From: Pyxidicoccus trucidator
Lineage (GTDB): Bacteria > Myxococcota > Myxococcia > Myxococcales > Myxococcaceae
Direction of reading: 5' to 3'
DNA length: 64,000 nucleotides
Assembly: GCF_010894435.1 (NCBI RefSeq)
Contig: NZ_JAAIXZ010000001.1
Coordinates: 1,332,322-1,396,321 of the forward strand
Below the pieces are notes generated by a model. It was not told the origin of the DNA, searched no databases, and saw nothing but the letters and a program-made list of their open reading frames with translations. A program made the translations under genes and the position numbers. Positions 2,955 through 26,701 of the stretch are shown here, one piece after another; position 1 is the first letter of the stretch, and each line of letters opens with the position of its first letter.

Positions 2955-3003
2955 CTCGAAGTGTGTGGGGCTCCGGCACGCGGCCGCATGGGCGGCCCGG
3001 TGC

Positions 3004-5094: not shown

Positions 5095-5264
5095 GAAGGA
5101 TGGGCTCTCAAACCTGAAAGCTCATTCTATCCTGTACCCCCCGACACCCCTTGGCGAGTTGTCCCTCCCTCCCACAGCCAGGGAGCAAGGACAGACTTTC
5201 TGTCTTTTGAGAAACCGGGAGACTCCGCCTCGAAGGAGGACCTCCCGGGTCTCCCGGAGGGTGC

Positions 5265-7343: not shown

Positions 7344-7476
7344 GTGCGGTCGTCCTTCTGGAATGACTGGGAGTAGGAGTCCCGTTCTCGTCGTGAGAAC
7401 AGGCGCGCGTCAACCGTCCCGCGGGCCATGCATTCCCGGAAGGGAATCACGCGTCGCGTCAGGTATGGTGTGGGCA

Positions 7477-8616
7477 ATGCCCGCGAAGCATCATGTCTAC
7501 CTCGTCCCAGGCTTCTTCGGCTTCATCAACCTGGGCGAGCTCATCTACTTCGGCCACGCGCACGACTACCTGAAGGCGGAGCTGGCCCGCCGGGGGGTGG
7601 ACGCGGAAGTGACGATTGTCCTGTCGCACCCGACGGCCTCCATCCGGACGCGCACGGCGGACCTGCTCAAGGCGGTGCAGGAGACGGCGGCCGGAGACGA
7701 CGGGCCCATCCACCTCGTGGGCCACTCGACGGGCGGGCTGGACTCGCGGCTGTTCGTCAGCCCCGGGGCGCAGCTGGCGGAGGGGCTGGATTTGGAGCCC
7801 TTCGCGAAGCGGGTGCGCACGGTGGTGACGGTGTCCACGCCGCATGCGGGGACGCCGCTGGCCACGTTCTTCATGGGGCTGTTCGGGCAGAAGATATTGA
7901 AGCTGCTCTCGCTATTCACTGTGTACGTGCTGCGCTTCGGGCGGCTGCCGTTGCGGGTGGCGTTCCGCTTCGGGCACGTGCTGGCGCGGGCGGACGACAC
8001 CCTCGGGTGGAAGCCCACGCTGCTGGACCAGCTCTATGACCAGCTCCTGGGGGACTTCTCCTCCGAGCGGCGGGACGCGGTGGCGAAGTTCCTGAGCGAC
8101 GTGGGGAACGACACGTCGCTGATTCCGCAGCTCACGCCGGAGGGCATCGACCTCTTCAACGCGAGCACGGTGGACCGGCCGGGAGTGCGGTACGGCTCGG
8201 TGGTGACGCAGGCGCGGCCTCCGTCGTTCCGGACGCGGATGTCGGCGGGGTTGGACCCGTACGCGCAGCTGACGCACACCATCTACGCGCTCGTGTACGG
8301 GCAGACGCAGCGGATGCCGCTGACGTCGATTCCGCCGCACACGCCCGCGCAGACGGCGGCGCTGGTGCAGGCGTACGGAGCGCTGCCGGGGCCCACGGCG
8401 TGTGACGGCATCGTCCCCACGCGCTCACAGGTGTACGGACGGGTGCTGGCGGCGGTGCGGGCGGACCACCTGGATGCGATTGGCCACTTCGACCAGCCCG
8501 CGCACCAGCCGCCCCATGTGGACTGGCTCATCTCCGGCTCTGGCTTCCGCCGGGCGCAGTTCGAGTCCACGTGGAAGAGCATCGTGGACTTCCTGCTGGA
8601 GGATGAGGGGCGCTGA
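7477..8616 (+). CDS. alpha/beta hydrolase, lipase/esterase-like
   Basis: A 379-residue protein with an alpha/beta-hydrolase N-terminus: a PGFFG oxyanion-type loop after the first strand and a GHSTG nucleophile elbow with Ser84. This pattern resembles triacylglycerol lipases and PGAP1-like serine hydrolases. The catalytic acid and His are less obvious; a DHLDAIGHFDQP stretch near the C-terminus is a good candidate for the His. No signal peptide is evident, suggesting a cytoplasmic protein. The ATG at 7477 was chosen; another in-frame ATG at 7465 is possible. It is divergent from the S46 peptidase gene across a 133-base gap. The substrate is unknown. Confidence 0.8.
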   Translation: MPAKHHVYLVPGFFGFINLGELIYFGHAHDYLKAELARRGVDAEVTIVLSHPTASIRTRTADLLKAVQETAAGDDGPIHLVGHSTGGLDSRLFVSPGAQLAEGLDLEPFAKRVRTVVTVSTPHAGTPLATFFMGLFGQKILKLLSLFTVYVLRFGRLPLRVAFRFGHVLARADDTLGWKPTLLDQLYDQLLGDFSSERRDAVAKFLSDVGNDTSLIPQLTPEGIDLFNASTVDRPGVRYGSVVTQARPPSFRTRMSAGLDPYAQLTHTIYALVYGQTQRMPLTSIPPHTPAQTAALVQAYGALPGPTACDGIVPTRSQVYGRVLAAVRADHLDAIGHFDQPAHQPPHVDWLISGSGFRRAQFESTWKSIVDFLLEDEGR

Positions 8617-8625
8617 CCCTCCTGC

Positions 8626-8655
8626 TCAGCCCCTCAGCCCCTCAGCCCCTCAGCC
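8626..8655. repeat. 8-base tandem repeat, 3.75 copies
   Basis: The unit TCAGCCCC is repeated between the convergent stops of the hydrolase gene and the MocR gene. One copy supplies the TGA of the MocR gene (8642-8644 on the minus strand). Length changes by slippage would alter only the last residues of that protein. Confidence 0.75.
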
Positions 8656-10120
8656 GCGCGAGAGCGCGCACCGCGGCGCGCAGGCCCGCGGGGCTCGCAC
8701 CGGAGAACCCCAGCAAGAGCCCCTGCTCCACACCGCGGCCCAGGTAGAGCGGTGACAGCCGGCGGGCCCCGAGCCGCTTCGTCTCCGCACGCGCGACGAC
8801 GTCCCCGTCCCGCCAGCCGGGCGCGAGGAACGTGGTGACATGCATGCCCGCCTCCGCCGCTCCGGGTCGCAGCCACCCTTCGGCCTCACGCCGCAAGGCA
8901 TCCAGCAGCGCATCCCGCCGCTCCGCATAGGCCAGGCGCATCTGCCGCAGGTGCGCGGCGTAGTGCCCCGCCTCCATGAAGTGCGCCATCGACGCCTGGG
9001 AGAGCAGCGGCGCGTGGCCATCCGTGGCGGCGCGCGCGGCGGTGAAGGCGTCGACCAGCGCCTCCGGGACGACGAGGAAGGCGAGCCGCAGCGACGGGAA
9101 CATCACCTTGTTGAAGGTCCCCGCGTAGAGGACGCGCCCCGCCACGTCCAGCCCCTGAATCGCAGCGAGGGGCCGCGTGGCGTAGCGGAACTCGCTGTCG
9201 TAGTCGTCCTCGAAGACCCAGGCACGCGCCGCCCGCGCCCACTCCAGCAGCGCCAGCCGCCTGGGCAGGCTCAGCGTCACGCCCAGCGGGTACTGGTGCG
9301 AAGGCGTGACGTAGGCCAGCCGGGCCTTCGGAGCGCGCGCGGTCCCCACGTCCACCCGGAGGCCCTCCGCGTCCACCGGCACCGGGCACACCCGCGCTCC
9401 CGCGGCCTCGAACGCGGCCCGCGCACCGAGATAGCCGGGCTCCTCCAGCCACACGCCCTCCCCTTCGTCCAGGAGCAGCCGCGCGGACAGGTCCAGCGCC
9501 TGCTGCGTGCTGGAGAGCACCAGCACCTGCCGCCACCCACAGCGCACCCCGCGCGCCGTGCCCAGGTGCGCGGCGATGACCTCTCGCAGCGGCCGGAAGC
9601 CCGCGGGCTCGCCAGCGGTCATCAGTCCGGGCCCCAGCTGCCGGGCCTGCTTCGCCACCGCGCGTCCCCACAGGTGCGTGGGGAACAAGTCCAACGCGGG
9701 CAGGCATGGCGTGAAGGGCTGCACGTCGCGGGGCTCCGGCGGCAGCACCTCGCGAGCCAGGCGCTGTCCCCGGCGTGACAGCCCGGGCCGGGCAGGAGGG
9801 CCGCTCCGACGCACGGGAGTGGCGATGGCGCTCCGGGGCAGCCGGGCATGCTCGGGCAGGGCCACCACGCTGCCGGAGCCGACGCGCCGCTCCAGGAAGC
9901 CCTCCGCATCCAGCTGTGAGAAGGCCCCCTCCACGGTGCCTCGGGAGACGCCGAGCTCGCGCGACAGCGTGCGTGTGGAGGGCAGCCGGCTTCGCGCCGC
10001 GAGCGCACCGGAGAGGATGGCTTCCCTCAGGCGCTCATAGAGCTGGCGGTGGAGGGGCGCCCCACCTCCGGTCTCCGGCTGGAGGAAGGGCAGTGACACT
10101 CCGGCGGCCCGCTTCGGCAT
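8642..10120 (-). CDS. MocR/PdxR family GntR-type regulator with aminotransferase-like domain
   Basis: A 492-residue fusion. Residues about 22-90 are a GntR winged helix (LHRQLYERLREAIL, then LPSTRTLSRELGVSRGTV). Residues about 130-490 are a class I aminotransferase fold: FEDDYDSEFRY holds the PLP-contacting Asp, and AGTFNKVMFP carries the Schiff-base Lys338. MocR proteins sense PLP or amino-acid-derived ligands and usually control a divergent neighbour, here the rhodanese gene across a 118-base gap. Start taken at the ATG at 10120, where family similarity begins; a longer upstream start would add a 24-residue unconserved extension. It converges with the hydrolase gene through the 8-base tandem repeat. 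Confidence 0.92.
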   Translation of the reverse strand: MPKRAAGVSLPFLQPETGGGAPLHRQLYERLREAILSGALAARSRLPSTRTLSRELGVSRGTVEGAFSQLDAEGFLERRVGSGSVVALPEHARLPRSAIATPVRRSGPPARPGLSRRGQRLAREVLPPEPRDVQPFTPCLPALDLFPTHLWGRAVAKQARQLGPGLMTAGEPAGFRPLREVIAAHLGTARGVRCGWRQVLVLSSTQQALDLSARLLLDEGEGVWLEEPGYLGARAAFEAAGARVCPVPVDAEGLRVDVGTARAPKARLAYVTPSHQYPLGVTLSLPRRLALLEWARAARAWVFEDDYDSEFRYATRPLAAIQGLDVAGRVLYAGTFNKVMFPSLRLAFLVVPEALVDAFTAARAATDGHAPLLSQASMAHFMEAGHYAAHLRQMRLAYAERRDALLDALRREAEGWLRPGAAEAGMHVTTFLAPGWRDGDVVARAETKRLGARRLSPLYLGRGVEQGLLLGFSGASPAGLRAAVRALARLRG

Positions 10121-10238
10121 GTCCCCATGAAGCCAGGACCAAGGCCCTCCGGCAACCGGCGTCCCGTCGATAATGGCCCATACCCGGGACATGAAATGGA
10201 GCTATCCGCCGGACCACTCCGGGGGCACATTTCCGCGC

Positions 10239-10694
10239 ATGACTGCTCCTGCCACTCCGTTCTCCTTCGTCCTCGAAACGCCGGCCGCGACGCCCGAAGA
10301 GGCCCGGCGCCACTTCCTCGCGAAGCTGTCCGTGGAGACAGACCCGGCCGACGTCCACCTGGACCTGGAGCGAGGCAAGAAGGGCTTCGTCGTGGTGGAC
10401 GTGCGCACGAAGGAGGCCTTCGCCGAGCGTCATGTGCCCGGTGCGCTCAACCTTCCCTCGCGGACCATCAGCGCGGAGACGACGGCGCACCTGAGCAGGG
10501 ACGACGTCATCATCACCTACTGCTGGGGCCCGGGCTGCAACGGCTCCACCAAGGCGGCCGCCCGCTTCGCCGCGCTGGGCTTCCGCGTGAAGGAGATGCT
10601 TGGCGGCCTCGAGTACTGGGTGAAGGAGGGCCACCCCACCGAGGGCACGGCCCCGCGAGGCACGCCCGTGTACGCGCACCGGGGAGATACCTGA
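10239..10694 (+). CDS. single-domain rhodanese-like sulfurtransferase
   Basis: A 151-residue protein with a rhodanese fold. VVVDVRTKEAFAERHVPGALNLP contains the characteristic Asp-Arg (CDC25-like) motif and the HVPGA helix start. The active-site loop reads YCWGPGCNGS, giving the persulfide cysteine at about residue 95, with a second cysteine five residues on. The family moves sulfane sulfur or detoxifies cyanide and reactive species in the cytoplasm. An N-terminal extension of about 40 residues precedes the domain. It is divergent from the MocR regulator, which probably controls it (inference from the usual MocR arrangement). Start is the ATG at 10239. Confidence 0.88.
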   Translation: MTAPATPFSFVLETPAATPEEARRHFLAKLSVETDPADVHLDLERGKKGFVVVDVRTKEAFAERHVPGALNLPSRTISAETTAHLSRDDVIITYCWGPGCNGSTKAAARFAALGFRVKEMLGGLEYWVKEGHPTEGTAPRGTPVYAHRGDT

Positions 10695-10761
10695 GCCAGG
10701 GCGCCACCCGAGACGCAGCACGCGTGAGTGGGCTCGGCCCCGGTCCGGACGCGTCCGGCAG

Positions 10762-10825
10762 CGTGCTGTTCGGAAATGTCGGGACATTTCGCGGCGCAAA
10801 TGTCCCGACATTTCCGAACAGCACG
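10762..10825. repeat. perfect 28-bp inverted repeat, 8-base loop, nested palindromes
   Basis: Arms at 10762-10789 and 10798-10825 are perfectly complementary. Each arm contains a smaller palindrome built on AAATGTC/GACATTT with a two-base centre, so the region can fold as one long hairpin or two small ones. It lies between the convergent stops of the rhodanese and TonB genes, so a bidirectional terminator is the simple reading, but there is no T-run and the stem is far longer than needed. It could instead be a transposed palindrome or a protein-binding site. Confidence 0.85.
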
Positions 10826-10905
10826 GGTCAGGTCCCGCACCGGGGGCCTCCCCTTGTCCCGGAAGGAGTCAGCTCCCGCGCGGGAGCCCCGGAGGTTCCG
10901 GGACG

Positions 10906-12054
10906 TCAGTACACGCCAATCAGATGGATTTGCACCCTCGGGTTGCCGAGGAACTCCTTGAGTCGCCAGCGGCTCCGCATCCCGTCATCGTGGATGCCGA
11001 CGCCTCCGGCCTTCGGTGCTTCCGCGCTGGCGAGCGCCTCGCGGAGCTGGGAGACGGCCCAGTCGTCGAACTTCGGGTCCCCCGAGCCCTCGATGACCTC
11101 CAACTCCAGCACCTTCCCATCGCGGGCCTGACGGACCTCCACGACGGCGGCGAGCGCGAGGATGGGCTCGGTGACGTCCACCATGAACATGTTCGCGGCG
11201 CGTCCGGCCTCGACGGCGGCCTGGAAGCGGTTGCGCTGCTCCAGGCGGTGGTCGCGCTCTTTCGGGGTATAGGGGGTGCCCGTCTTGCCGAAGCGCTCGA
11301 TGGCCTCCACCTGCTCTCGCTTCATCCGCGAGGCGAGCACCTTCAGGTCCGGTGGGGGCGGGTTGACCAGCTGCTTCGAGAAGTCCTTCTGGAGCTGCGC
11401 GAAGTAGGGGGCGGGAGCGCCGCTCGCCGCCCGAGCTTCCGCCAGCGAGTCCCGGGCCCACCCATCCACCTTCACGCGCGCCTCTTCCGCCTGCTGGCGA
11501 GCGATGGCCTTCGGGTCTGGGACCTCGCCCGTGTTGCGCAGGGTCCGTCCCGTCGAGGGCGGCTTCCCCGTCAGCCCTTCTCCGAGCAGATGTCCCGGCA
11601 CCAGGATGGGCCGCTCGGCCGAGGCGAGTGGCGCGTCCTCGGACAGGGGCTTCGCGGGAGGCGAAGTCTCCTGCCCGCCGGGCGCCCCCGCCGGTGGCGC
11701 TGTCGCCACCTGAGGAGCAGGTGTCTCCGGCGTTGAAGCAGCCGGGCGCTCGACCTGGCGCGAGGGAGGAGCACTCACCGGGTCGGGCGGCCGTGCCGTC
11801 GGCCGTGGGGCGGTCGGCACCGTCGGCTTCGCGGGCCTGGTGATGATTTCAATCTCCGCGACGTCACGCGACGGCAGCCTCGGAGGCCGGACAGACGGGA
11901 CCCGCGACAGCGCGAAGAAGAGCGCCGCGTGCAGGAGCACCGAGAGCAGCAGTGTGAGGCCCAGCCTGGAGCGACGTGACACGCAGGACAGCTTGCCTCG
12001 CCATCCCCTCCGCGTGAAGCGTCCCAGGGGACGGGTGTTGACCCGACACGCCAT
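10906..12054 (-). CDS. TonB family energy transducer protein
   Basis: A protein of about 382 residues with classic TonB layout: one N-terminal membrane helix (LGLTLLLSVLLHAALFFAL), a long Pro/Ala-rich periplasm-spanning region (about 65-190), and a C-terminal TonB-like domain where ARDGKVLELEVIEGSG followed by FDDWAV is diagnostic. TonB transmits proton-motive force from ExbB/ExbD to outer-membrane receptors. No exbB or exbD is adjacent. The start is uncertain: the ATG at 12054 has an overlapping AGG, but a GTG at 11982 would place the membrane helix nearer the N-terminus. It converges with the rhodanese gene across the long inverted repeat and is divergent from the lipoprotein at 12184. Confidence 0.85.
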   Translation of the reverse strand: MACRVNTRPLGRFTRRGWRGKLSCVSRRSRLGLTLLLSVLLHAALFFALSRVPSVRPPRLPSRDVAEIEIITRPAKPTVPTAPRPTARPPDPVSAPPSRQVERPAASTPETPAPQVATAPPAGAPGGQETSPPAKPLSEDAPLASAERPILVPGHLLGEGLTGKPPSTGRTLRNTGEVPDPKAIARQQAEEARVKVDGWARDSLAEARAASGAPAPYFAQLQKDFSKQLVNPPPPDLKVLASRMKREQVEAIERFGKTGTPYTPKERDHRLEQRNRFQAAVEAGRAANMFMVDVTEPILALAAVVEVRQARDGKVLELEVIEGSGDPKFDDWAVSQLREALASAEAPKAGGVGIHDDGMRSRWRLKEFLGNPRVQIHLIGVY

Positions 12055-12183
12055 CCTGCCTGCCGGGCACGTCCACGCGGCCTCAAAGCCCCCGTGGCCC
12101 GGGGCCGCTTCGACGGCGAGGACGCGCTCGAGTCGCCCTCATGGGGCCCGTGGGCCGAGCCAATCCTGCATAGAATCGGACGC

Positions 12184-14106
12184 ATGCGCCTCCCTGTTCT
12201 GCCAACCCTGCTCCTGCTCACCCTGGCGCACTGCACCCCCGTGGGCGTGCCGGCTGCCGATGCGGGCGTGTCGGCAGCCAACGTAGGCGTGTCGGCAGCC
12301 AACGTGGGCGTGTCGGCAGCCAACGTAGGCGTGTCGGCAGCCAACGTGGGCGTGTCGGCAGCCGACGCGAGCGCGCCGACCGCTGACGCAGGGCTCGCAG
12401 CCTCCCGGGCGCTCACGGTCCAGGTCTTCGGCCTCGATGGCGCGCCCCTCGCGGGCAGCCAGGTGCAGGTCGTCGCCGAGACGCTGGAGGACCACAACCT
12501 CTGGCTCGAGGCGGACGAGCGCGGGGCGGCGAGCACTCCGGCGCCCGCCCCCGGGCGCTACCGGGTGCTGGCGTACTGGCTGCTGAAGGGCAAGTTCCAG
12601 CGCTACGTGTGGCAGGACCTCGACGTGAAGCCCGGCACGGAAGACCTGCGCGTGGAGCTCCGCTTCGCGCGGGGCTCCGCCGCGCCCATCTCGGGGCGTG
12701 TGCGAGGACTGGACGACCAGCCCGTGGCCGGAGCGGAGGTGCAGGCCTGGCAGCTCGCCTCTTCGGTGCCGTTGGACGGAGACCTGCTGCGCAACAGCTC
12801 CTCGGCTCGGGAGACGGTGTCCGCGACGACCGACGCCGAGGGCCGCTTCACCCTGGAGCCCCTGCGTGAAGGCGAGTACGGGCTCCAGGTGCGGCACTCC
12901 CCCGCCGGCCTGGGCGACACCTACGCACGGACGGGAGGCCCCGCCGTCGAACTCCAGCTCGTCCCCCGGTGCGTGAGGAGCGCCTCCGGCCGCGTGGTCG
13001 ACGAGAGGGGTGCCCCAATCAAGAGCTTCGAGGTGGGCTCGCGGCGCGTGCGCGATGCGAAGGGGCACTTCCAGCTCAAGGGCGACTGCTACGTCACCGT
13101 CGAGGCCAGGGGCTTCGTGTCCCAGGACCTTCCGGTGCTCAGCCTGAAGGGGCTGCACGTGGAGCTGCCGGACGTCGTGCTCGAGCGGGGACGCCAGCTC
13201 ACGGGACGCGTGCTGGGGCCGGACGGGAAGCCGCTGAAGGACGTGGACCTCAAGGCGTACTGGGCTGGGCCCACCCCCGGGTCCACCTCGGAGAGCACCG
13301 ACGCCGGGGGACGCGTCTCCCTCGGACCGGTCCCCGCGGGCCGGGAGGTGACGGTGTGGGCGAAGTGGAACGACAAGGCCCTGCGGCAGCAGGTCGCTCC
13401 CGGCAAGGACGCGAAGGTCGAGCTCCGCTTCCCCGCCGAGGACTCACGCCTGGAGGTCCTCACGAAGGACGCGCAGGGAGCGCCGCTCGGAGGAATGCAG
13501 GTCCAGGCGCAGAGCGCATGGGGCTTCCTCACCCTGACCACGGACAAGACAGGCCGGGCCGCCCAGGGTGTGCCTGCTGGGAGCTACGAGGTCCGCGTCA
13601 CGCACAAGCCCTCCGGCAGGCCGGGGGCGCGTCGCGTCGCGTACCGCTTCGACCCGGTGAGCGTCCAGGTCTCCCCCGAGAGCACCCCGCCCGTCGAGGT
13701 CCGGGCCACGCAGGGCACCGGGCGGCTCCGCGTCATCCTGCCCGAGGGGACGCACTACGACGCCATCTTCGTCGTGCCAGGGGCCCACGACTGGCCCGCG
13801 GACATCCCGGCCTGGTCGAAGCTCCTGGCGTACCCGATGGCCGAGGACGCGGTCTCGAGCCTCTGGATGAGCCAGGCGCCGGCACTCATCTACTACGAGA
13901 CGCAGAACGACTTCAGCGAGCTGGTGCCTGGCCCCTACACCGTCTTCGCAGGGAATCCGCAGGACGATGGCCCGGGCCTGCTCGCCTTCCGCCAGGTCAT
14001 CGAGGTCGATGGCCGCGGACGGCAGGTCGTCCAGGTCCGCTTCTCGGGCGACGGCTCGCGCAGACTCCATGCTGTCCCGGTAAGCGCGCCCGCCGGGGCT
14101 CAGTAG
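12184..14106 (+). CDS. lipoprotein with carboxypeptidase-regulatory-like (Ig-fold) domains
   Basis: A 640-residue protein with a signal peptide and lipobox ending at Cys17 (TLAHC). Immediately after the lipid anchor come six 7-residue repeats of the VSAANVG type (about residues 22-63), a flexible tether. The rest is a chain of beta-sandwich units of the carboxypeptidase-regulatory type, recognisable by repeated TDAEGRFTLEPLREGEY-like turns and GRVLGPDGKPL-like strands. Such proteins are common at the myxobacterial cell surface, with unknown ligands. Start chosen at the ATG at 12184 because the signal peptide begins there. Its last 7 bases overlap the stop region of the convergent DUF4442 gene. 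Confidence 0.82.
   Translation: MRLPVLPTLLLLTLAHCTPVGVPAADAGVSAANVGVSAANVGVSAANVGVSAANVGVSAADASAPTADAGLAASRALTVQVFGLDGAPLAGSQVQVVAETLEDHNLWLEADERGAASTPAPAPGRYRVLAYWLLKGKFQRYVWQDLDVKPGTEDLRVELRFARGSAAPISGRVRGLDDQPVAGAEVQAWQLASSVPLDGDLLRNSSSARETVSATTDAEGRFTLEPLREGEYGLQVRHSPAGLGDTYARTGGPAVELQLVPRCVRSASGRVVDERGAPIKSFEVGSRRVRDAKGHFQLKGDCYVTVEARGFVSQDLPVLSLKGLHVELPDVVLERGRQLTGRVLGPDGKPLKDVDLKAYWAGPTPGSTSESTDAGGRVSLGPVPAGREVTVWAKWNDKALRQQVAPGKDAKVELRFPAEDSRLEVLTKDAQGAPLGGMQVQAQSAWGFLTLTTDKTGRAAQGVPAGSYEVRVTHKPSGRPGARRVAYRFDPVSVQVSPESTPPVEVRATQGTGRLRVILPEGTHYDAIFVVPGAHDWPADIPAWSKLLAYPMAEDAVSSLWMSQAPALIYYETQNDFSELVPGPYTVFAGNPQDDGPGLLAFRQVIEVDGRGRQVVQVRFSGDGSRRLHAVPVSAPAGAQ
12247..12372 (+). repeat. 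21-base in-frame tandem repeat, six units
   Basis: Six units of 21 bases encode V-[SP]-A-A-[ND]-[VA]-[GS]. The four central units alternate between GTA and GTG for one valine codon, so two adjacent units probably duplicated together as a 42-base block. The outer units have diverged. The copy number is likely to differ between strains by slippage. Confidence 0.9.
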
Positions 14107-18613: not shown

Positions 18614-19117
18614 ATGATGGAACCGCCCGTCTCCTCACAACCTCGCCTGCTGCTGCGAGCCCTGGGCCCCGGGCTCGTGGGCGCCACGTCGCTGACGCTC
18701 GTGCACGAGGGCGCCCGCCGCGTGCTGGCGCACCCACCCCGGATGGATGTGCTGGGCAAGCGTGCCCTCGAGAAGGGCGTCCGCTGGTTCGGCGGCAAGC
18801 CCGCGTTCGGCAGCCGCCTGCACCGGCAGACCCTCGCGGGAGATTTGCTGTCCAACAGCCTCTTCTACTCGCTGGTGGCCCTGGGCCGGCCGAAGCGGCC
18901 CTACCTGCGCGGCGCGGTGCTGGGGCTGCTCGCGGGCGTGGGCGCGGTGGTGCTGCCGCCGTACCTGGGCCTGGGCCGGGGCCTCCGCCGCGCACGGGCC
19001 TCCACGTCGCTGCTCACCGTCGCCTGGTACACGCTGGGCGGGCTGGCCGCGGCGCGCGCCACGCGGAGCCTCGTGGGCGCCGGCCCCACCCTGGAGACCT
19101 CTGGCCCTGGTTGGTAG
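18614..19117 (+). CDS. small membrane protein of unknown function
   Basis: A protein of about 167 residues with two or three hydrophobic segments: a probable one near LFYSLVALG, a strong one at GAVLGLLAGVGAVVLPPYLG, and another in TVAWYTLGGLAAA. Basic clusters lie between them. No family was recognised. Two adjacent ATG codons (18614, 18617) could start it. Its stop is two bases before the pyrophosphatase ATG, so it is tightly coupled to the pyrophosphatase/CHAD pair. A link to phosphate or polyphosphate handling at the membrane is possible but rests on position only. Confidence 0.65.
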   Translation: MMEPPVSSQPRLLLRALGPGLVGATSLTLVHEGARRVLAHPPRMDVLGKRALEKGVRWFGGKPAFGSRLHRQTLAGDLLSNSLFYSLVALGRPKRPYLRGAVLGLLAGVGAVVLPPYLGLGRGLRRARASTSLLTVAWYTLGGLAAARATRSLVGAGPTLETSGPGW

Positions 19118-19119
19118 AC

Positions 19120-19659
19120 ATGACGACGGACCTCACTCGCATACCCCTGCGCGGGCAGAATGGCGCCTTCCACGTCGTCGTCGAGTCGCCCCGCGGCTCG
19201 ACGGTGAAGCTGAAGTACGACGCGGCGCTGAAGGCCTTCTCCATCTCCCGGCCGCTGACACGCGGGCTGCGCTACCCGTTCGACTGGGGCTTCATCCCCT
19301 CCACGAAGGGGCCGGACGGGGACCCGCTGGACGCCATGGTGTACTGGGACGACACCACCTGGCCCGGCGTGGTGCTGCCCTGCCGCGCGCTCGGCGTGCT
19401 CCAGGTGGACCAGAAGAAGCGCACGGGCAAGCCGGGAGACCGCGAGCGCAATGACCGCATCCTCGCCGTCCCTGTCTCCTCCTACCGCGCCGAGCATCTG
19501 CAGAGCGTCCAGCAACTGTCCAAGCGTGAGCGGGACGAGCTGGAGCACTTCTTCCTCGCCGCCGTGCACTTCGAGGACAAGGACGCGCGCATCCTCGGCT
19601 GGGAGGGCCCCGAGGGCGCGGAGCGGATGCTGCGCCAGTACCCCCTCACGGAGGGCTGA
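19120..19659 (+). CDS. ppa: family I soluble inorganic pyrophosphatase
   Basis: A 179-residue enzyme of the family I pyrophosphatase type. DGDPLDAMV (residues 66-74) fits the family signature and supplies three metal-binding aspartates; YPFDWGFIP and the KYDAALKAF block fit the active-site face. It hydrolyses pyrophosphate to two phosphates with magnesium in the cytoplasm, pulling biosynthetic reactions forward. It is two bases after the membrane-protein gene, and the CHAD gene begins at the very next base after its stop. Neighbours suggest a joint role in pyrophosphate/polyphosphate turnover. Confidence 0.93.
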   Translation: MTTDLTRIPLRGQNGAFHVVVESPRGSTVKLKYDAALKAFSISRPLTRGLRYPFDWGFIPSTKGPDGDPLDAMVYWDDTTWPGVVLPCRALGVLQVDQKKRTGKPGDRERNDRILAVPVSSYRAEHLQSVQQLSKRERDELEHFFLAAVHFEDKDARILGWEGPEGAERMLRQYPLTEG

Positions 19660-20562
19660 GTGGCTCAACCTACCCCCATCCGGGGCCTGGGCCCCGACAC
19701 GCGCCTGGGACATGCCGCCCGGCGCATCCTCGCGGGCCGGCTCGCGGACGTGCGCAAGCCGGAGGCGAGCTTGCAGGACGGCGTCGACGACGAGTCCGTC
19801 CACGACATGCGCGTGGCCATCCGCCGCCTGCGCGCGGCCCTCCAGGTGTTCCGTCCCATCGGCGGGCTGGGGAAGAAGCTGGAGCAGCAGCTGAAGCGCA
19901 TCCAGGACGCGCTGGGCGACGTGAGAGACCTGCACGTGCAGGCGGCGTGGCTGGAGGGCGCGGCCGGCAAGGTGGAGAAGGCGAAGCCCGGCACGCGCGC
20001 CGGCATCACCGCGCTGCGCGACGCGCGGCTGGCCCACCTGGACGCCCGGGAGGGTCGGCTGCATGCGGAGCTGGAGCGCTGGGTGAAGCGCACCGTGCCC
20101 CGGCTGCTGAAGCGCATGGACACGCTGGAGGACGAGCACCGCTTCGGCGGCCGACGTGTCCGTGCCCAGCTGCGAAAGCGCCTGAGCCGCGTCGCCAGGC
20201 GGATGGACACGTACATGGACGCGGCGGACGCGGAGTCCGCCCATGCGCTGCGCAAGGACGTGAAGAAGCTGCGCTACGAGCTCGAAATCTTCCAGCCCGC
20301 CTTCCGCCGCACCATGGACGCGCTGCTGGAGGTGCTCGTGCCGCTGCAGGACGGGCTGGGCGAGCTGCACGACGCGGACGTGCGGCTGGAGCTCTTCGAG
20401 CAACTGGCCGCGGAGAGCGCCCCCCGCGAGCGCAAGGCCGCGCGGGCCCTGCTCACCCTCGTCCGGGACGAGCGCACGAAGCGGGCGGCGGAGATTGCCC
20501 GCGAGCTCCAGCGCTGGAACGCCGAGGAGATTCCCCGGCGCCTGCGCCGGCTGCTCGCGTGA
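19660..20562 (+). CDS. CHAD domain protein (polyphosphate-associated)
   Basis: A 300-residue alpha-helical protein. SVHDMRVAIRRLRAALQVF near residue 48 and HALRKDVKKLRYELEIF near residue 195 are the two internal halves of the CHAD domain, each with the conserved His and basic face. CHAD proteins bind polyphosphate granules, and many are encoded with CYTH-type triphosphatases; no CYTH domain is present here, but an inorganic pyrophosphatase gene abuts directly. The start codon is GTG at 19660, immediately after the pyrophosphatase stop. The last 34 bases of this gene are repeated about 1.4 kb downstream. Confidence 0.9.
   Translation: MAQPTPIRGLGPDTRLGHAARRILAGRLADVRKPEASLQDGVDDESVHDMRVAIRRLRAALQVFRPIGGLGKKLEQQLKRIQDALGDVRDLHVQAAWLEGAAGKVEKAKPGTRAGITALRDARLAHLDAREGRLHAELERWVKRTVPRLLKRMDTLEDEHRFGGRRVRAQLRKRLSRVARRMDTYMDAADAESAHALRKDVKKLRYELEIFQPAFRRTMDALLEVLVPLQDGLGELHDADVRLELFEQLAAESAPRERKAARALLTLVRDERTKRAAEIARELQRWNAEEIPRRLRRLLA
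20529..20562 (+). repeat. direct repeat, copy 1 (3' end of CHAD gene)
   Basis: These 34 bases encode the last residues and the TGA of the CHAD protein. They recur at 21974-22007 with one mismatch, including the TGA. Confidence 0.9.
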
Positions 20563-20724
20563 GCGGGCCACGGTGCCGCCGTACGAATACCGCCCGCCCG
20601 CATAGCTGTCCTACATTTCATGTTTTGCAGGTCTGATGGGTAGCATGGCCGCCGCGGGAGCGGGCCGGAGCGCCGGCCCGTGGCCCGTGCCGTCCCACGT
20701 CTCGTCACACCCGGACCTGCACGA

Positions 20725-21918
20725 ATGCCCCACACCCCTGCCCGCCGCGTCGCGGCCTCGACTCCCTTGCGTCTGCTGTGCCTCTTCTCCTCGCTGGGCC
20801 TGGCGCCGCTGGCCAGCGCCAACGACGGTGGCTTCGCCGCCGCGAATCCGCCCGAAGGCAAGGGCGGTGGCGAGTACGTCCACCGCGAGCTCTACGAGCA
20901 CCTCACGGAGAGCCAGCGCCGGGACGTCTGGGACAACATCCACCGCAACCTCCGCACGCTGGAGCAGGAGGGCCGGCTGGCCCCGCCCAACTCGCTGGCC
21001 AACGCCACCCTCGCGTGGCCGCTGCGCGCCAATGGCATCACCGACCCGGGCTACCACGGCATCTCCAACTTCGTGGACCACAACGCCAGCTACACGGGCT
21101 TCATCCGTGACTACAACTGCGGCGTCCGCTCGTACGACACCTCCAGCGGCTACAACCACATGGGGGTGGACATCTACACGTGGCCGTTCTCCTGGCAGAA
21201 GATGAACAACAACCAGGTGCAGGTGATTGCCGGCGCGCCGGGCACCATCGCCTACCGCTCGGACGGCAACTACGACCGCAACTGCGCCTTCAACAGCGGC
21301 AACTGGAACGCCGTCTACGTCCGCCACGCGGATGGCTCCATTGCCTGGTACGGGCACCTGAAGAACGGCTCAGTCACCACCAAGGCCGTGGGCGCCGCCG
21401 TGGCGCAGGGCGAGTACCTGGGCGTGGTGGGCAGCTCCGGCAACTCCACCGGGCCGCACCTGCACCTGGAGGTCTACGACTCCACCGGCAGGCTGAATGA
21501 CCCGTTCCAGGGCGCGTGCAACTCGCTGAACCCCAACTCGTGGTGGCAGGCACAGCGGCCCTACTACGACTCGGCCATCAACAAGCTGACCACGGGCGGC
21601 GCACCGGCCGTCTTCCCCAGCTGTCCGAACGTGGAGACGAGCAACGAGAAGACCGCGTTTCGCTACGGGGAGCCCGTCTACTTCACCGCGTACTTCCGGG
21701 ACCAGCTCAACACCCAGCAGGGGCAGTACCGCATCATCCGGCCCAACGGCACCGTCTTCTCCACGTGGACGCACAACAGCCCGGCGGCGCACTACTCGTC
21801 GTCGTGGTGGTACTGGTACTGGACGAGCTTCGCGCCCACGGGCCCCTCGGGCACCTGGCGCTTCGAGGTGACGTTCAACGGCCAGACGCACGTGAAGACC
21901 TTCACGATGTCGCCGTAG
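20725..21918 (+). CDS. secreted M23 (LytM) family metallopeptidase
   Basis: A 397-residue protein with a signal peptide (PLRLLCLFSSLGLAPLASA). The M23 endopeptidase core is present: HMGVDIYTW gives the HxxxD zinc pair, and GPHLHLEVY gives the HxH motif with the third zinc ligand. Upstream lies a helical pro-region (about residues 50-110); downstream is a C-terminal beta domain rich in Trp and Tyr, probably for substrate binding. M23 enzymes cut peptidoglycan cross-bridges or Gly-rich peptides; in a predator it could attack prey walls. The start is the ATG at 20725, where the leader begins. The gene is framed by a 34-bp direct repeat. Confidence 0.9.
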   Translation: MPHTPARRVAASTPLRLLCLFSSLGLAPLASANDGGFAAANPPEGKGGGEYVHRELYEHLTESQRRDVWDNIHRNLRTLEQEGRLAPPNSLANATLAWPLRANGITDPGYHGISNFVDHNASYTGFIRDYNCGVRSYDTSSGYNHMGVDIYTWPFSWQKMNNNQVQVIAGAPGTIAYRSDGNYDRNCAFNSGNWNAVYVRHADGSIAWYGHLKNGSVTTKAVGAAVAQGEYLGVVGSSGNSTGPHLHLEVYDSTGRLNDPFQGACNSLNPNSWWQAQRPYYDSAINKLTTGGAPAVFPSCPNVETSNEKTAFRYGEPVYFTAYFRDQLNTQQGQYRIIRPNGTVFSTWTHNSPAAHYSSSWWYWYWTSFAPTGPSGTWRFEVTFNGQTHVKTFTMSP

Positions 21919-21973
21919 CGGCCAGGAGGAGCCTCCCCGGACTCCGCCGCGCTGCTTCGGCACGGGGTCCGGG

Positions 21974-22007
21974 GATTCCCCGGCGCCTGCGCCGGATGCT
22001 CGCGTGA
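21974..22007 (+). repeat. direct repeat, copy 2
   Basis: 33 of 34 bases match the 3' end of the CHAD gene at 20529-20562, including the final TGA. It is not part of an open gene here. The interval between the copies carries the M23 peptidase gene; the ATPase/nuclease-like cassette starts about 130 bases further on. Confidence 0.9.
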
Positions 22008-22139
22008 CGCGAATGGGGCAGCTCCCCAGGACATGACCGCTAGACCGATGCGGCTCGCGCGGTAAGGTACGTGTGTAGGTGCACCCCTCGCCACCTTCGG
22101 GCCGGCGGGACTTTCCTCCATCTGCGCTGGATGCCTGCC

Positions 22140-23456
22140 ATGGTGAAGCTGAAGCGGCTCAAGATTCTGAAATTCCGGAACGTCGCACCGGGAACGGAGC
22201 TGCGCTTCCGCGACTCTCTGAATGTCCTGCTGGGTAAGAATGGCACGGGGAAGACTACGCTGCTGAATCTCGTCGTCGCTCTGCTGCGGTGGGATTTTAC
22301 ACCGTACCTCAGCGAGCAGTTCTCCATCGAGTATGACCTTCAGCTACCGGATGGACACATTGCTGTTCGGCTACACAATGAACCGCGCTATTCCCTTCGC
22401 AAATCCGCTGTCGCTGATCAAGCAGCACCAGGGGGACTGATAGCCGGCACAATGCTGCGCTCCAACAAGAGCTATGAGACATCGGGCGACATCACAATAA
22501 CCGGCGCTGGCCTCAAATCGACACACATCGCAGAATTCAAAAACTCACAACTAACACTAAAAAACACAAACGAGACAGCAGGCACCCACGACTACGAAAA
22601 ACAAATCATTGACGACACAGCCGTAATCAACATTATTTCCGCAATATACCAATTAGGCATACTCCACAACAAAGACACTGAAACAATAACAGGCATAATA
22701 GCGTCATCCCATCAGAATCCCTTCCTATTAAGATTCGATGAGTCCCTTGATTACCTAGGCCACATCACAATGCACGAAAGTGCCTTCGTGACGATGAAGT
22801 TCCCTAATGGAGAGCACTACGCCATTGCTCGTCTGGGGGGGCCTTCCTCCGTACAGCAGGAAATCAATCGACAACTTCAATTAAATCAAAATGTAGATGA
22901 AATACAAATTCAGTCAAGCGACGAGGATGCGGAATTCCTTTCCAAGGCGGTGCAACTCCTCGGCTTTATGGCAGCCAAGATCCGCATCCAGCGCACCGCG
23001 TTCATTACAGAGCCTACCGAGAGCATTGAGTTCGGCAACATTCGATTCGACTTTACCCGTCGAGATCGCTCCATCATAAATCACCAACTACTCAGTTACG
23101 GGCAGAAGCGGCTGCTCGCCTTCTACTACTATCTCGCCTGCAGTCCCACGGCGGTGGTCGCCGACGAACTGGTCAACGGCATGCACCACGAATGGATTGA
23201 AGCCTGCATGGATGACCTCGAAGGACGGCAGGCCTTCCTGACCAGTCAGAACCCCCTGCTGCTCGACTACCTCCACTTCGAGTCGGTCGACGAGGTTCTC
23301 TCCTCCTTCGTCCTGTGCCGCACGGAGCCGGTTGGCGAACGCGAGCAACTCTACTGGGAGAACATGACCCAGGAAGACGCTCAGGGGTTCTTCGATGCCT
23401 ACCAGGTGGGCATTCAGCACGTCAGCGAGATCCTCCACACCCGGGGGCTATGGTGA
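22140..23456 (+). CDS. ABC/AAA-type ATPase of a putative two-gene defence system
   Basis: A 438-residue ATPase of the SMC/OLD-like ABC class. Walker A is GKNGTGKTT (32-40). The C-terminal half has an ABC-signature-like LLSYGQKRLL, a Walker B ending in VADE, and FLTSQNPLLLDYL, where the usual switch His of THSP-type motifs is Gln. There is no long coiled coil. The stretch from about 22400 to 22760 is much richer in A and T than its surroundings, with codons foreign to this genome, so the gene or its central domain was probably acquired. An ATG nine bases earlier is also possible. The stop overlaps the next gene by seven bases. Pairing with a TOPRIM-like partner recalls PARIS and OLD/Gabija-type defence. 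Confidence 0.8.
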   Translation: MVKLKRLKILKFRNVAPGTELRFRDSLNVLLGKNGTGKTTLLNLVVALLRWDFTPYLSEQFSIEYDLQLPDGHIAVRLHNEPRYSLRKSAVADQAAPGGLIAGTMLRSNKSYETSGDITITGAGLKSTHIAEFKNSQLTLKNTNETAGTHDYEKQIIDDTAVINIISAIYQLGILHNKDTETITGIIASSHQNPFLLRFDESLDYLGHITMHESAFVTMKFPNGEHYAIARLGGPSSVQQEINRQLQLNQNVDEIQIQSSDEDAEFLSKAVQLLGFMAAKIRIQRTAFITEPTESIEFGNIRFDFTRRDRSIINHQLLSYGQKRLLAFYYYLACSPTAVVADELVNGMHHEWIEACMDDLEGRQAFLTSQNPLLLDYLHFESVDEVLSSFVLCRTEPVGEREQLYWENMTQEDAQGFFDAYQVGIQHVSEILHTRGLW

Positions 23457-24256
23457 GCAGCAGACGTCCCGACCTATCAGTGCTCCTGGTGACGGAGGAC
23501 TCCGGCGACGATGCTTTCGACACCTTCAAGCGGGTCGCCAGAGAATTGCTGAAGCAAGTGGATGAGTACATCAACACTCATCCGGAGCGACTCGCCTTCG
23601 AGCCGCTACGAAGCACGGAGGCTCTCCAGGCGCTCAATGGGAGTATCTGGAAGAGCCGCGCTGCTCGCGACAGGCAGAAGCAGGTGACGCTGATCGGCAC
23701 CATCGCGACGCAGCTCATGCTGGAGAACGGCTGGGCCCTGTTCCACGTCGATGGAGACCGCACCTGGGCGGACCGTTCGTCCAGCGAGAACGTGCAGAAG
23801 TTCCGGCCCCTGGTCTGGGAGAAGGTCAGGCTGCGCATCTTGATGGAGTTGGAGCAGCGCGAGAAGCAGACTGCCAATCCCACAACGCCCAGCGAGCGCG
23901 AGGCGCGCGCGAACCAGCGCATGACGCGGCTCAAGCAGGTGGTCCCGTTCTACAGCATGGAGGCGTGGCTCTTCCAGAACACCCGGGAGGCGGTCCGGCT
24001 GTGCGCGGAGCACTACAGGAACACTGACGTCGAGCGCTTCAATGCGTGGGAACAGGACCGGACAGCACTGGACGAAGTACTGGAGCCCAAGAAAAAGGTT
24101 TGTCTGGGAGCGAAGCACAACCTTGAGCTCGCCTCTCAGGGCTTCCCTGCAAGAGCAGTCCACGACGCTGGCAAGTCCTTCGCCGCCGTGGTCCAGGAAC
24201 TTTCCCAGGACGAGGAACTGACCGAGGCACTCAGCCGAACGTACGCCTACGAGTAG
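23450..24256 (+). CDS. TOPRIM/DUF4276-like effector candidate, partner of the ATPase
   Basis: A 268-residue protein. Acidic motifs are spaced as in TOPRIM-like nucleases: LLVTEDSGDD (Glu16, Asp20, Asp21) after the first strand, FHVDGDRTW (Asp101, Asp103) after a second hydrophobic strand, and YSMEAWLFQ (Glu171), resembling the E-x-W-L-L element of DUF4276/DUF4435-type proteins. By analogy it would cut nucleic acid when released or activated by the ATPase. The family call is tentative. The ATG at 23450 overlaps the ATPase stop by seven bases, so expression is coupled. Composition is closer to the host than the ATPase core. Confidence 0.6.
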   Translation: MVSSRRPDLSVLLVTEDSGDDAFDTFKRVARELLKQVDEYINTHPERLAFEPLRSTEALQALNGSIWKSRAARDRQKQVTLIGTIATQLMLENGWALFHVDGDRTWADRSSSENVQKFRPLVWEKVRLRILMELEQREKQTANPTTPSEREARANQRMTRLKQVVPFYSMEAWLFQNTREAVRLCAEHYRNTDVERFNAWEQDRTALDEVLEPKKKVCLGAKHNLELASQGFPARAVHDAGKSFAAVVQELSQDEELTEALSRTYAYE

Positions 24257-24362
24257 TGCCTGGGTTGTTCCTTCCAGCCTGTCTTCCGCTGCACGGCGAA
24301 CAATGCGACTGCGCCTCGCCTTGAATCGGTAGGGTCCAGACGGGGCGCAGGTGGAACAGACG

Positions 24363-25280
24363 CTACTGCTGCGGCGAGGGCTGCGCGCCCGGCGAGGACT
24401 CGCCGCTCTCCGGCGCGGCCGGCGCGGTGGGCTTCACCTGCGACGTGGCCTCGATCTTCACCGCCTGAGGCTCACCGCTGCCCTGGTCCGTGCGGTAGGA
24501 GGCGCGCACCTGGCTGCCCTCCTCGATGTCCGCCGCGCTCGCCTGGCGCCCGTCCACCGTCACCTGCGTCTGGGGACCAATCTGCAGCCGGAGCTGGGGC
24601 TCACCGCGTGAGCTGAGCAGCACCTCCTGCTCGCTCGACGTCAACACCTCACCGACAATCTGCTGCTCGGAACCCGGCGCCGGAGCTGCCTGCGCCTGGG
24701 CCGGCTGCTGCTCGGTGCCCGGAGCCGGCGTTGCCTGCGCCTGGGCCGGCGGCTGCTGCGCGGGCTCGGCCGGCTGCTGCGGCGCGGGCGCCACCGCCAC
24801 CGGCTGCTGCGCCTGCTCGCGGAGCTGCTCGGACTGCTGCTTCGCCTGCTGCTGCATCTGCTGGTTCTGCGCGGACAGCTCCTCCTGCTGCTTCTTCTGG
24901 GCCTCCACCGCGCTGGCCTGGGCCTGCTGGGCCTCCTGCTGGGCCGACTGCGTCTGCTGCTGGGCCGACTGCTGCGCCTGCTGTGCCTGCTGCGACTCCT
25001 GGCCCGCGCGCGCCTGGGCCTCCTGGAGCTCCTGCTGCTTCTCCTGGAGCTCCTGCTGGGCGCTGGCGGCCTCCTTCTGCTGCTCGCTGGCCTCCTCCTG
25101 CGAATCGCGCGCCTTGTCGAAGGCGCCCTCCGAGCGCTCCTGCGCCTGCTCCACCTGGCCGCTCGCCGACGCCTGCTCGCCTGATTGCTCCGGAGTACTC
25201 GTGCGGCTCCGTTCCTCACAGCCCGTTCCCAGCACCAGCGCCGCCGCCCCTGCCATCAACCACCCCGCGCGGAATTTCAT
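24363..25280 (-). CDS. Gln/Ala-rich coiled-coil lipoprotein
   Basis: A 305-residue protein with signal peptide and lipobox ending at Cys21 (LGTGC). Residues about 35-175 are extremely rich in Gln, Ala, Glu and Ser, forming a long predicted coiled coil. A Pro/Ala/Gln tether follows with two near-identical copies of an AQAxPAPGxEQQ unit. The C-terminal part (about 215-280, beginning QIVGEVLTSSEQEVLL) looks like a small beta domain. The start at 25280 is where the leader begins. It is divergent from the Hsp70-like gene across 164 bases. It probably spans part of the periplasm from a membrane anchor. Confidence 0.75.
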   Translation of the reverse strand: MKFRAGWLMAGAAALVLGTGCEERSRTSTPEQSGEQASASGQVEQAQERSEGAFDKARDSQEEASEQQKEAASAQQELQEKQQELQEAQARAGQESQQAQQAQQSAQQQTQSAQQEAQQAQASAVEAQKKQQEELSAQNQQMQQQAKQQSEQLREQAQQPVAVAPAPQQPAEPAQQPPAQAQATPAPGTEQQPAQAQAAPAPGSEQQIVGEVLTSSEQEVLLSSRGEPQLRLQIGPQTQVTVDGRQASAADIEEGSQVRASYRTDQGSGEPQAVKIEATSQVKPTAPAAPESGESSPGAQPSPQQ

Positions 25281-25444
25281 GGATGTCTCCTGTCGTGAAA
25301 GTGACAGCAAAAAGATGGAGAGACCTCCCGTGGAACCAACCCGCATCCACGACGGGCGCCCGCTGCCTCGCCCGGCCACCGACAGGCGGCCTCCTCACGA
25401 GGCCCTACCCTTGAAGGGACTTTGGAGATAAGGGGCGCACCCCC

Positions 25445-26701
25445 ATGCGTGCCTGCGGACTCGACTTCGGAACCAGCAACACCGCCGCGGCGCTGCCCGA
25501 CGGCACGGTGCTGCCCCTGCAGCCCCACACCCAGGAGCCGCGCCTGTTCCGCTCCGTCCTCTTCTTCCCGGACGACGAGCAGACCATCTACGCGGGCGCC
25601 GACGCCATCCAGCGCTACCTGGAGGACAACACCGGACGCTTCATCCAGTCCGTGAAGTCCTTCCTCCACTCCAACTCCTTCCGCGCCACCCAGGTGAAGG
25701 GGCGCACCTACACGATTGAAGAGCTGGTCGCCGTCCTCCTGCGCCGCGTGCGCGACGCCGCCGGCACGCAGATGGGCGGACCTCCGGACGCCGTCATCCT
25801 CGGCCGCCCCGCCGTCTTCACCCCGGACCCGGAGGCGGACGCCCTCGCCCAGCAGCGCCTGCTCCGCGCCGCCGAGCTCGCCGGCTTCCAGAAGGTCCAG
25901 TTCCTCATCGAGCCCATCGCCGCCGCGCTCGCCTACGAGGCCCAGCTCACCCGCGACGAGCTCGTCCTCGTGGCGGACTTCGGCGCCGGCACCACCGACC
26001 TCACCCTCATGCGCCTGGGGCCCTCGCGCCGGGGCAACCCCGACAGGCGCCCGGACGTGGTGGGCTCCACCGGCGTGCGCATCGGCGGTGACCGCTTCGA
26101 CGCCGAAATCATGCGCCACAAGCTGCTGCCCCGCTTCGGTGCCGGCTCCTCGTACCGGCTGCGCGGCATCAGCGACAAGCGGATGCCCATCCCCCAGCAC
26201 GTCATGGCCAAGCTGCTCACCTGGCACGAGATGTCCTTCATCCGCGAGAAGTCCACCCAGGAGCTGCTGGAGACCATGCTGGAGACCAGCGACAAGAAGG
26301 TGGAAATCCAGGCCCTCTATGACCTCGTCATGGACAACCTGGGCTACCGGCTCTTCCGCGCGATTGAAGCGGCCAAGGTGCGCCTGTCCCGTGACGAGCA
26401 GGCCACCGTGGACTTCGAGGAGGCCCGCATCCAGCTCCACGAGCCCATCACCCGCGCCGAGTTCGAGGCCTTCAGCAAGCCCCTGCTCGATGAGCTGGCG
26501 CAGTGCACGGACGGGCTGCTCGCCCGCCATTCCGAGGCGAAGGACATCGACGCGGTGTTCCTCACCGGCGGCTCCTCGCAGATTCCCGCGGTGCGTCAGC
26601 TCTACGTGCGCCGCTTCGGCGAGGACCGCGTGCGCACCGCGGATGCGTTCACCTCCGTGGCCGAGGGCCTCGGGCGCGCGGCGGCCCACCTGACGTCCTG
26701 A
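25445..26701 (+). CDS. Hsp70-family chaperone, YegD-like
   Basis: A 418-residue protein containing an actin/Hsp70 nucleotide-binding fold without the usual peptide-binding domain. The phosphate-1 loop is GLDFGTSNTAAAL, phosphate-2 is VADFGAGTTDLTLM, and the adenosine motif is FLTGGSSQIPAVRQL. This short architecture matches YegD, an Hsp70 homologue of unsettled function in E. coli. It is cytoplasmic. The start ATG at 25445 is preceded by a purine-rich stretch. It is divergent from the Gln-rich lipoprotein and converges on another lipoprotein across a strong hairpin. Confidence 0.9.
   Translation: MRACGLDFGTSNTAAALPDGTVLPLQPHTQEPRLFRSVLFFPDDEQTIYAGADAIQRYLEDNTGRFIQSVKSFLHSNSFRATQVKGRTYTIEELVAVLLRRVRDAAGTQMGGPPDAVILGRPAVFTPDPEADALAQQRLLRAAELAGFQKVQFLIEPIAAALAYEAQLTRDELVLVADFGAGTTDLTLMRLGPSRRGNPDRRPDVVGSTGVRIGGDRFDAEIMRHKLLPRFGAGSSYRLRGISDKRMPIPQHVMAKLLTWHEMSFIREKSTQELLETMLETSDKKVEIQALYDLVMDNLGYRLFRAIEAAKVRLSRDEQATVDFEEARIQLHEPITRAEFEAFSKPLLDELAQCTDGLLARHSEAKDIDAVFLTGGSSQIPAVRQLYVRRFGEDRVRTADAFTSVAEGLGRAAAHLTS

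Follow-up and report, generated by a model that had tools for sequence, protein, structure and literature searches.

Gene content of the CHAD-Hsp70 interval

The window, i.e., the whole 64,000-nucleotide stretch of DNA that was analyzed, contains a CHAD-domain gene on the forward strand (19660 to 20562), which is present in the ORF list with a GTG start and matches Pfam PF05235 (E = 2.9e-41). Its orthologue was found in all 24 same-genus genomes searched, at 66–81% identity. An inorganic pyrophosphatase gene abuts it, the two together spanning 19111 to 20562 with a gap of 0. Since CHAD domains bind polyphosphate (PMC6537752) and the two genes abut, this arrangement suggests a phosphate-metabolism pair. 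The right anchor of the interval is an Hsp70-family gene (25445 to 26701, forward strand; Pfam PF00012), a close orthologue of which (87–94% identity) occurs in every same-genus relative but G016, i.e., in 23 of 24. Next to this anchor lies a gene for a Gln/Ala-rich protein (24363 to 25379, reverse strand), which forms the right border of the variable interval according to synteny in relatives.

Downstream of CHAD, there is an M23 metallopeptidase gene (20725 to 21918, forward strand; Pfam PF01551, E = 6.4e-15), which encodes 397 aa from this ATG and has an in-frame GTG at 20680. The 55 bp between the CHAD stop codon and the onset of M23-region homology with the relative G021 (20563 to 20617) are not homologous to the CHAD/ATPase junction of that genome. 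On the 3' side of M23, the forward strand carries a GC-rich, terminator-like hairpin without a T-run, CCCCGGAC...GTCCGGGG (21935 to 21974). Among 96 family genomes, we found the M23 orthologue in the focal genome and G021 only. The two proteins share 84% aa identity, and the GC3 of the gene is 0.95. Given this identity, its chromosome-typical GC, and the location of the G021 orthologue in the same interval but on the opposite side of the ATPase pair, the gene does not appear mobile; rather, it looks like a long-standing chromosomal gene and fits vertical inheritance.

The remainder of the interval is occupied by a two-gene cassette. Its first gene encodes an OLD/RecF-like AAA ATPase (22140 to 23456, forward strand), with matches to Pfam AAA_21 (2.7e-14) and to the PADLOC AriA profile (1.6e-14), and its best homologue is the gene directly 3' of CHAD in G021. 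The partner gene (23453 to 24256, forward strand; 267 aa) encodes conserved EDSG and DGD motifs and sits next to the ATPase gene in all homologous pairs that we inspected, among them 9 other myxobacterial loci. The pair is also present in other family genomes; in the six such loci checked, neither CHAD nor M23 lies within ~1.5 kb. The partner protein had no match among Pfam families or to an AriB model, and PADLOC HEC-01B matched it weakly in some members (5.8e-5). Likewise, a search of PDB with the profile of the partner family, a plasmid search with the partner and the ATPase, and a search of viral contigs with the partner all returned no match, and a single-sequence AlphaFold2 model of the partner was of low quality (pLDDT 50.6). 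Assignment of the cassette to the PARIS defense systems, which calls for an AriB (DUF4435/TOPRIM) partner, is not supported, the AriA-like profile match of the ATPase standing alone. We consider the two genes a candidate defense pair.

The cassette is GC-poorer than M23, and its identity to G021 is only 63% for the ATPase and 70% for the partner. The ATPase pair is the GC-poor, faster-changing component of the interval. Within the ATPase gene, the center (22400 to 23100) has a GC content of ~0.41–0.54 per 200 nt, compared with ~0.70 nearby. Calculated per 40 columns, ATPase identity to G021 drops to a minimum of 20–30%; it is 95% in the first 40 columns and 82–100% in the last 160.

The repeated CHAD end and its flanks

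The original prediction held that 33 of 34 bases at the 3' end of CHAD, including the stop codon, recur 1.4 kb downstream. Our data bear this out. Copy 1 (20529 to 20562, forward strand) is the final 34 nt of CHAD, and copy 2 (21974 to 22007, forward strand) is a relict 34-nt CHAD end; the two share 33 of 34 nt, with the CHAD stop codon within the repeat, and they are spaced 1445 nt apart. The match can be extended to 37 nt at 35/37 (20526 to 20562 versus 21971 to 22007). The final base of the hairpin behind M23 is the first base of copy 2, so that the seam falls at the hairpin end. M23 is the sole convincing gene between the copies according to the ORF list and Pfam, in agreement with the prediction that no integrase is present there. 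The ATPase gene was likewise correctly placed shortly after the second copy, as it starts 133 nt behind it, at 22140.

The pair is unique in the 12.67-Mb genome: a genome-wide search allowing ≤3 mismatches in the first 31 nt revealed these 2 sites only, and the idea of a widespread motif was thus rejected. No match at ≤3 mismatches appeared in dinucleotide-shuffled windows. Among unrelated sites, the one closest to copy 2 matches it at 28 of 30 nt and lies within another gene on contig C11. We rejected the idea that copy 2 came from this site and regard the match as a coincidence, for that gene is unrelated and has equivalents in relatives. It does calibrate chance, in that GC-rich 30-mers reach 28/30, but not 33/34 at a distance of 1.4 kb. 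GC-rich palindromic codons make near matches of this kind common; nevertheless, the empty shuffles, the restriction to two places genome-wide, and the native-like ATPase upstream DNA behind copy 2 leave a chance origin exceedingly improbable, and so is an assembly artefact, given that 34 nt should be too short to confuse normal assembly.

The order of genes in G021 makes it the informative comparator. There, CHAD is followed by 95 bp, the ATPase, the partner, three ORFs (collectively X), M23, the Gln-rich gene, and Hsp70, i.e., CHAD-ATPase-partner-X-M23 as against CHAD-M23-[34 nt]-ATPase-partner in the window. No repeats flank M23 or the cassette in G021. In a local five-gene tree, G000, G020, and G021 fell close together at weak support values, and G021 was not firmly grouped with the focal genome (UFBoot 64–78).

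Each copy has one native flank. Over the 20 nt upstream of the repeat, copy 1 shares 14–19 positions with relatives and copy 2 shares 3–4, its left flank being the M23 tail. On the other side, copy 1 is followed after its TGA by GCGGGC, versus CGG in most close relatives. Copy 2 is followed by CG and then by a sequence that resembles the CHAD/ATPase intergenic region of G021 (22008 to 22139; common elements GCGGTAAGGT and CTGGA-G-CCTGCC), so that on its right side it agrees with the native CHAD/ATPase junction. When this intergenic DNA was compared with the 95-bp gap of G021, shuffled sequences scored as well in 5/1000 ungapped and 4/300 gapped trials; for the DNA 3' of copy 1, the corresponding values were 999/1000 and 281/300. 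In addition, the match of copy 2 to the CHAD ends of relatives continues past the stop codon in several genomes (to nt 36–39). As to the gene-end topology, the original prediction was thus right: copy 1 keeps the native left flank and copy 2 the native right flank.

The sole difference between the copies lies in CGG[A/C]TG, where copy 2 has A and copy 1 has C. The six relatives of the closest clade (G020, G023, G012, G010, G021, and G002) have A, and the base in copy 1 is a derived one. Copy 2 differs by one base from copy 1 and likewise by one base from the CHAD 3' ends in G020, G023, and G010, so that more than one donor would fit it equally well. The upstream flanks, the G021-like downstream DNA, and the base common to close relatives are best explained if copy 2 is the tail of a former CHAD-ATPase junction in front of which a complete CHAD and M23 were put. 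An ATPase pair directly 3' of CHAD is the arrangement that the window has in common with G021, and here a CHAD end, copy 2, still precedes the pair directly. The outer flanks are native and the inner seam is non-homologous, as in a 3'-end remnant left by homology-facilitated illegitimate recombination.

Interval contents in relatives

We compared the interval across 24 same-genus genomes and 16 named loci (GTDB collection; the loci overlap with the 24 genomes), and 96 family genomes were used for M23. The interval is empty in G023 and G002, in which CHAD faces the Gln-rich gene directly. Other relatives carry different cargo, which was named from the sequences alone rather than by profile search: a TetR, FAD monooxygenase, dioxygenase-like, and FAA-hydrolase-like set in G010 and G020, an RND-efflux and two-component set in G018, and a transposase-like ORF in G008 (2980 to 3426). 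The CHAD-to-Hsp70 interval is thus a plastic cargo locus with empty sites and other cargo. In locus L042 of G018, the RND-efflux and two-component genes occupy 3189 to 13202 between CHAD and Hsp70, and relatives of two of them sit 3' of Hsp70 in G008. A record titled Comamonas sp. KCTC 72670 (L073) contains a Myxococcus-like CHAD/Hsp70 locus (77% and 89% identity, respectively), and its name looks wrong.

Neither the 24 same-genus genomes nor the 16 named loci, many of them with cargo, showed a recurrence of the CHAD end clearly above chance. This result bears on the suggestion that the repeat is an integration footprint at a re-used insertion point. Spelled out as a rival explanation, a small element carrying M23 would have entered at the 3' end of CHAD and rebuilt that end, with the repeats as attL and attR and with an integrase that was lost or acted in trans. 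The direct repeat of a gene end including its stop codon (33/34 nt) and the native outer flanks on both sides are indeed shared with integrative elements whose att sites lie in gene 3' ends. Here, however, no integrase or recombinase is found between the copies (ORF list and Pfam), the cargo is one chromosomal-looking gene, and the M23 orthologue of G021 sits on the opposite side of the cassette and has no repeats around it. Moreover, if an att site were re-used here, the repeat should be seen in relatives, and none of those with cargo at the same place has it (24 genomes, 16 loci), which disfavors the att reading. When the repeat was searched as an att site, no plasmid, phage, or viral contig with such a site was recovered; the 31-nt pattern gave 0 exact viral contig matches, and phage and plasmid matches were confined to the M23 catalytic stretch. 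We therefore consider site-specific integration unlikely. What stands of the original proposal is the gene-end topology, in an interval that is plastic; a re-used att site is not supported.

Movement of M23 by a transposase, with an unusually long target duplication, is even harder to credit. A 1.4-kb segment flanked by a duplication would suit it, as would the transposase-like ORF in the same interval of G008. Nevertheless, we found no transposase ORF or family match between the copies and no clear terminal inverted repeats in 20563 to 21970, and a duplication of 34 nt exceeds those usually made by insertion sequences.

Proposed recombination at the seam of two interval versions

Our preferred reading, to which we assign a probability of about one-half, is that the repeat is an ordinary recombination scar at the seam of two versions of a frequently changing interval rather than a place where a mobile element landed. 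In one version, CHAD would have been followed directly by the ATPase pair, as it still is in G021, and in the other by M23. Homologous pairing within CHAD (or on the Hsp70 side), combined with an illegitimate end-join on the other side, would bring the M23 unit's tail to a point 34 nt short of the CHAD stop codon in the other version. The incoming or retained CHAD copy would keep the gene whole, and the old 34-nt end would stay behind, non-coding, in front of the ATPase. Homology-facilitated illegitimate recombination is the likeliest route, providing the most economical account; that there was a single event between two alleles, and which of these was resident, is what we infer from the arrangement. 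The contrast between M23, which fits vertical inheritance, and the GC-poorer, more divergent cassette also speaks for this account. The CHAD-ATPase allele was found in G021, and the postulated CHAD-M23 allele was not found among the 96 family genomes. One comparator only, G021, contains both modules, and the account leaves two stretches unexplained, one of 55 bp after CHAD and one of ~55 bp after the partner gene; both points count against it. Nucleotide blocks along the pyrophosphatase-CHAD genes displayed no clear switch of nearest relative, and a recombinant tract in CHAD was accordingly not adopted. With weak tree support and no visible tract in CHAD, either version may have been the donor or the recipient.

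The same type of recombination has been proposed for type VI secretion system (T6SS) immunity arrays and orphaned Rhs 3' regions (PMC5361080). In the effector-immunity arrays of V. cholerae and in Rhs orphan tips, as in the window, a module is joined near a gene 3' end, the old 3' part is left behind, and no integration site is involved (PMC5361080). In contrast to those remnants, CHAD is not a toxin, the remnant is non-coding and no longer than 34 nt, and there is a single known instance. The scar is best read as a fresh instance of an already known kind of event. It shows content change without integrases in a plastic interval of Myxococcus/Pyxidicoccus-type genomes, and its seam polarizes one such change beside a candidate defense pair. 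It also cautions that a repeated gene 3' end alone does not prove an integrative element.

The main rival, which we hold to be possible but clearly less probable than the scar, is tandem duplication followed by differential loss. The duplicated unit would have run from 34 nt before the CHAD stop codon to behind M23 in a G021-like ancestor; subsequent deletion of the first ATPase-partner-X and the second X-M23 would have permuted the gene order and left the repeat as the join point. Bacterial duplication through microhomology is documented (PMC11111574), and here, as at the join points of tandem duplications, the seam connects the point where a segment ends downstream with an upstream end that lies inside a gene. 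The model converts the G021 order to that of the window and predicts the M23-tail/CHAD-end/ATPase seam exactly, and the repeat begins at the hairpin end. Against this, it requires one duplication and two deletions, and no second full copy of any gene is found, which sets the window apart from other duplication/loss cases. Nor is there any remnant of a duplicate ATPase, partner, or M23 in the interval, although such loss is part of the model.

A possible, weak second CHAD relict just 3' of the partner gene (24271 to 24294, forward strand) would suit the repeated local copying implied by tandem duplication. It matches internal CHAD codons for FQPAFRRT at 21/24 nt, and this level was reached by 1/1000 shuffles. 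The match emerged from a scan of five segments, and in a gapped test 56/300 shuffles were as good; since the gapped test did not single it out, we give it modest weight, and it may be either a relict or chance. A far broader proposal, which we regard as very improbable, would be that the 3' end of CHAD serves myxobacteria as a preferred point of entry without an integrase, that end-joining adds whole genes there, and that short gene-tail remnants record successive cargo, including this second relict behind the ATPase pair. All three differences between 24271 to 24294 and CHAD are C/T.
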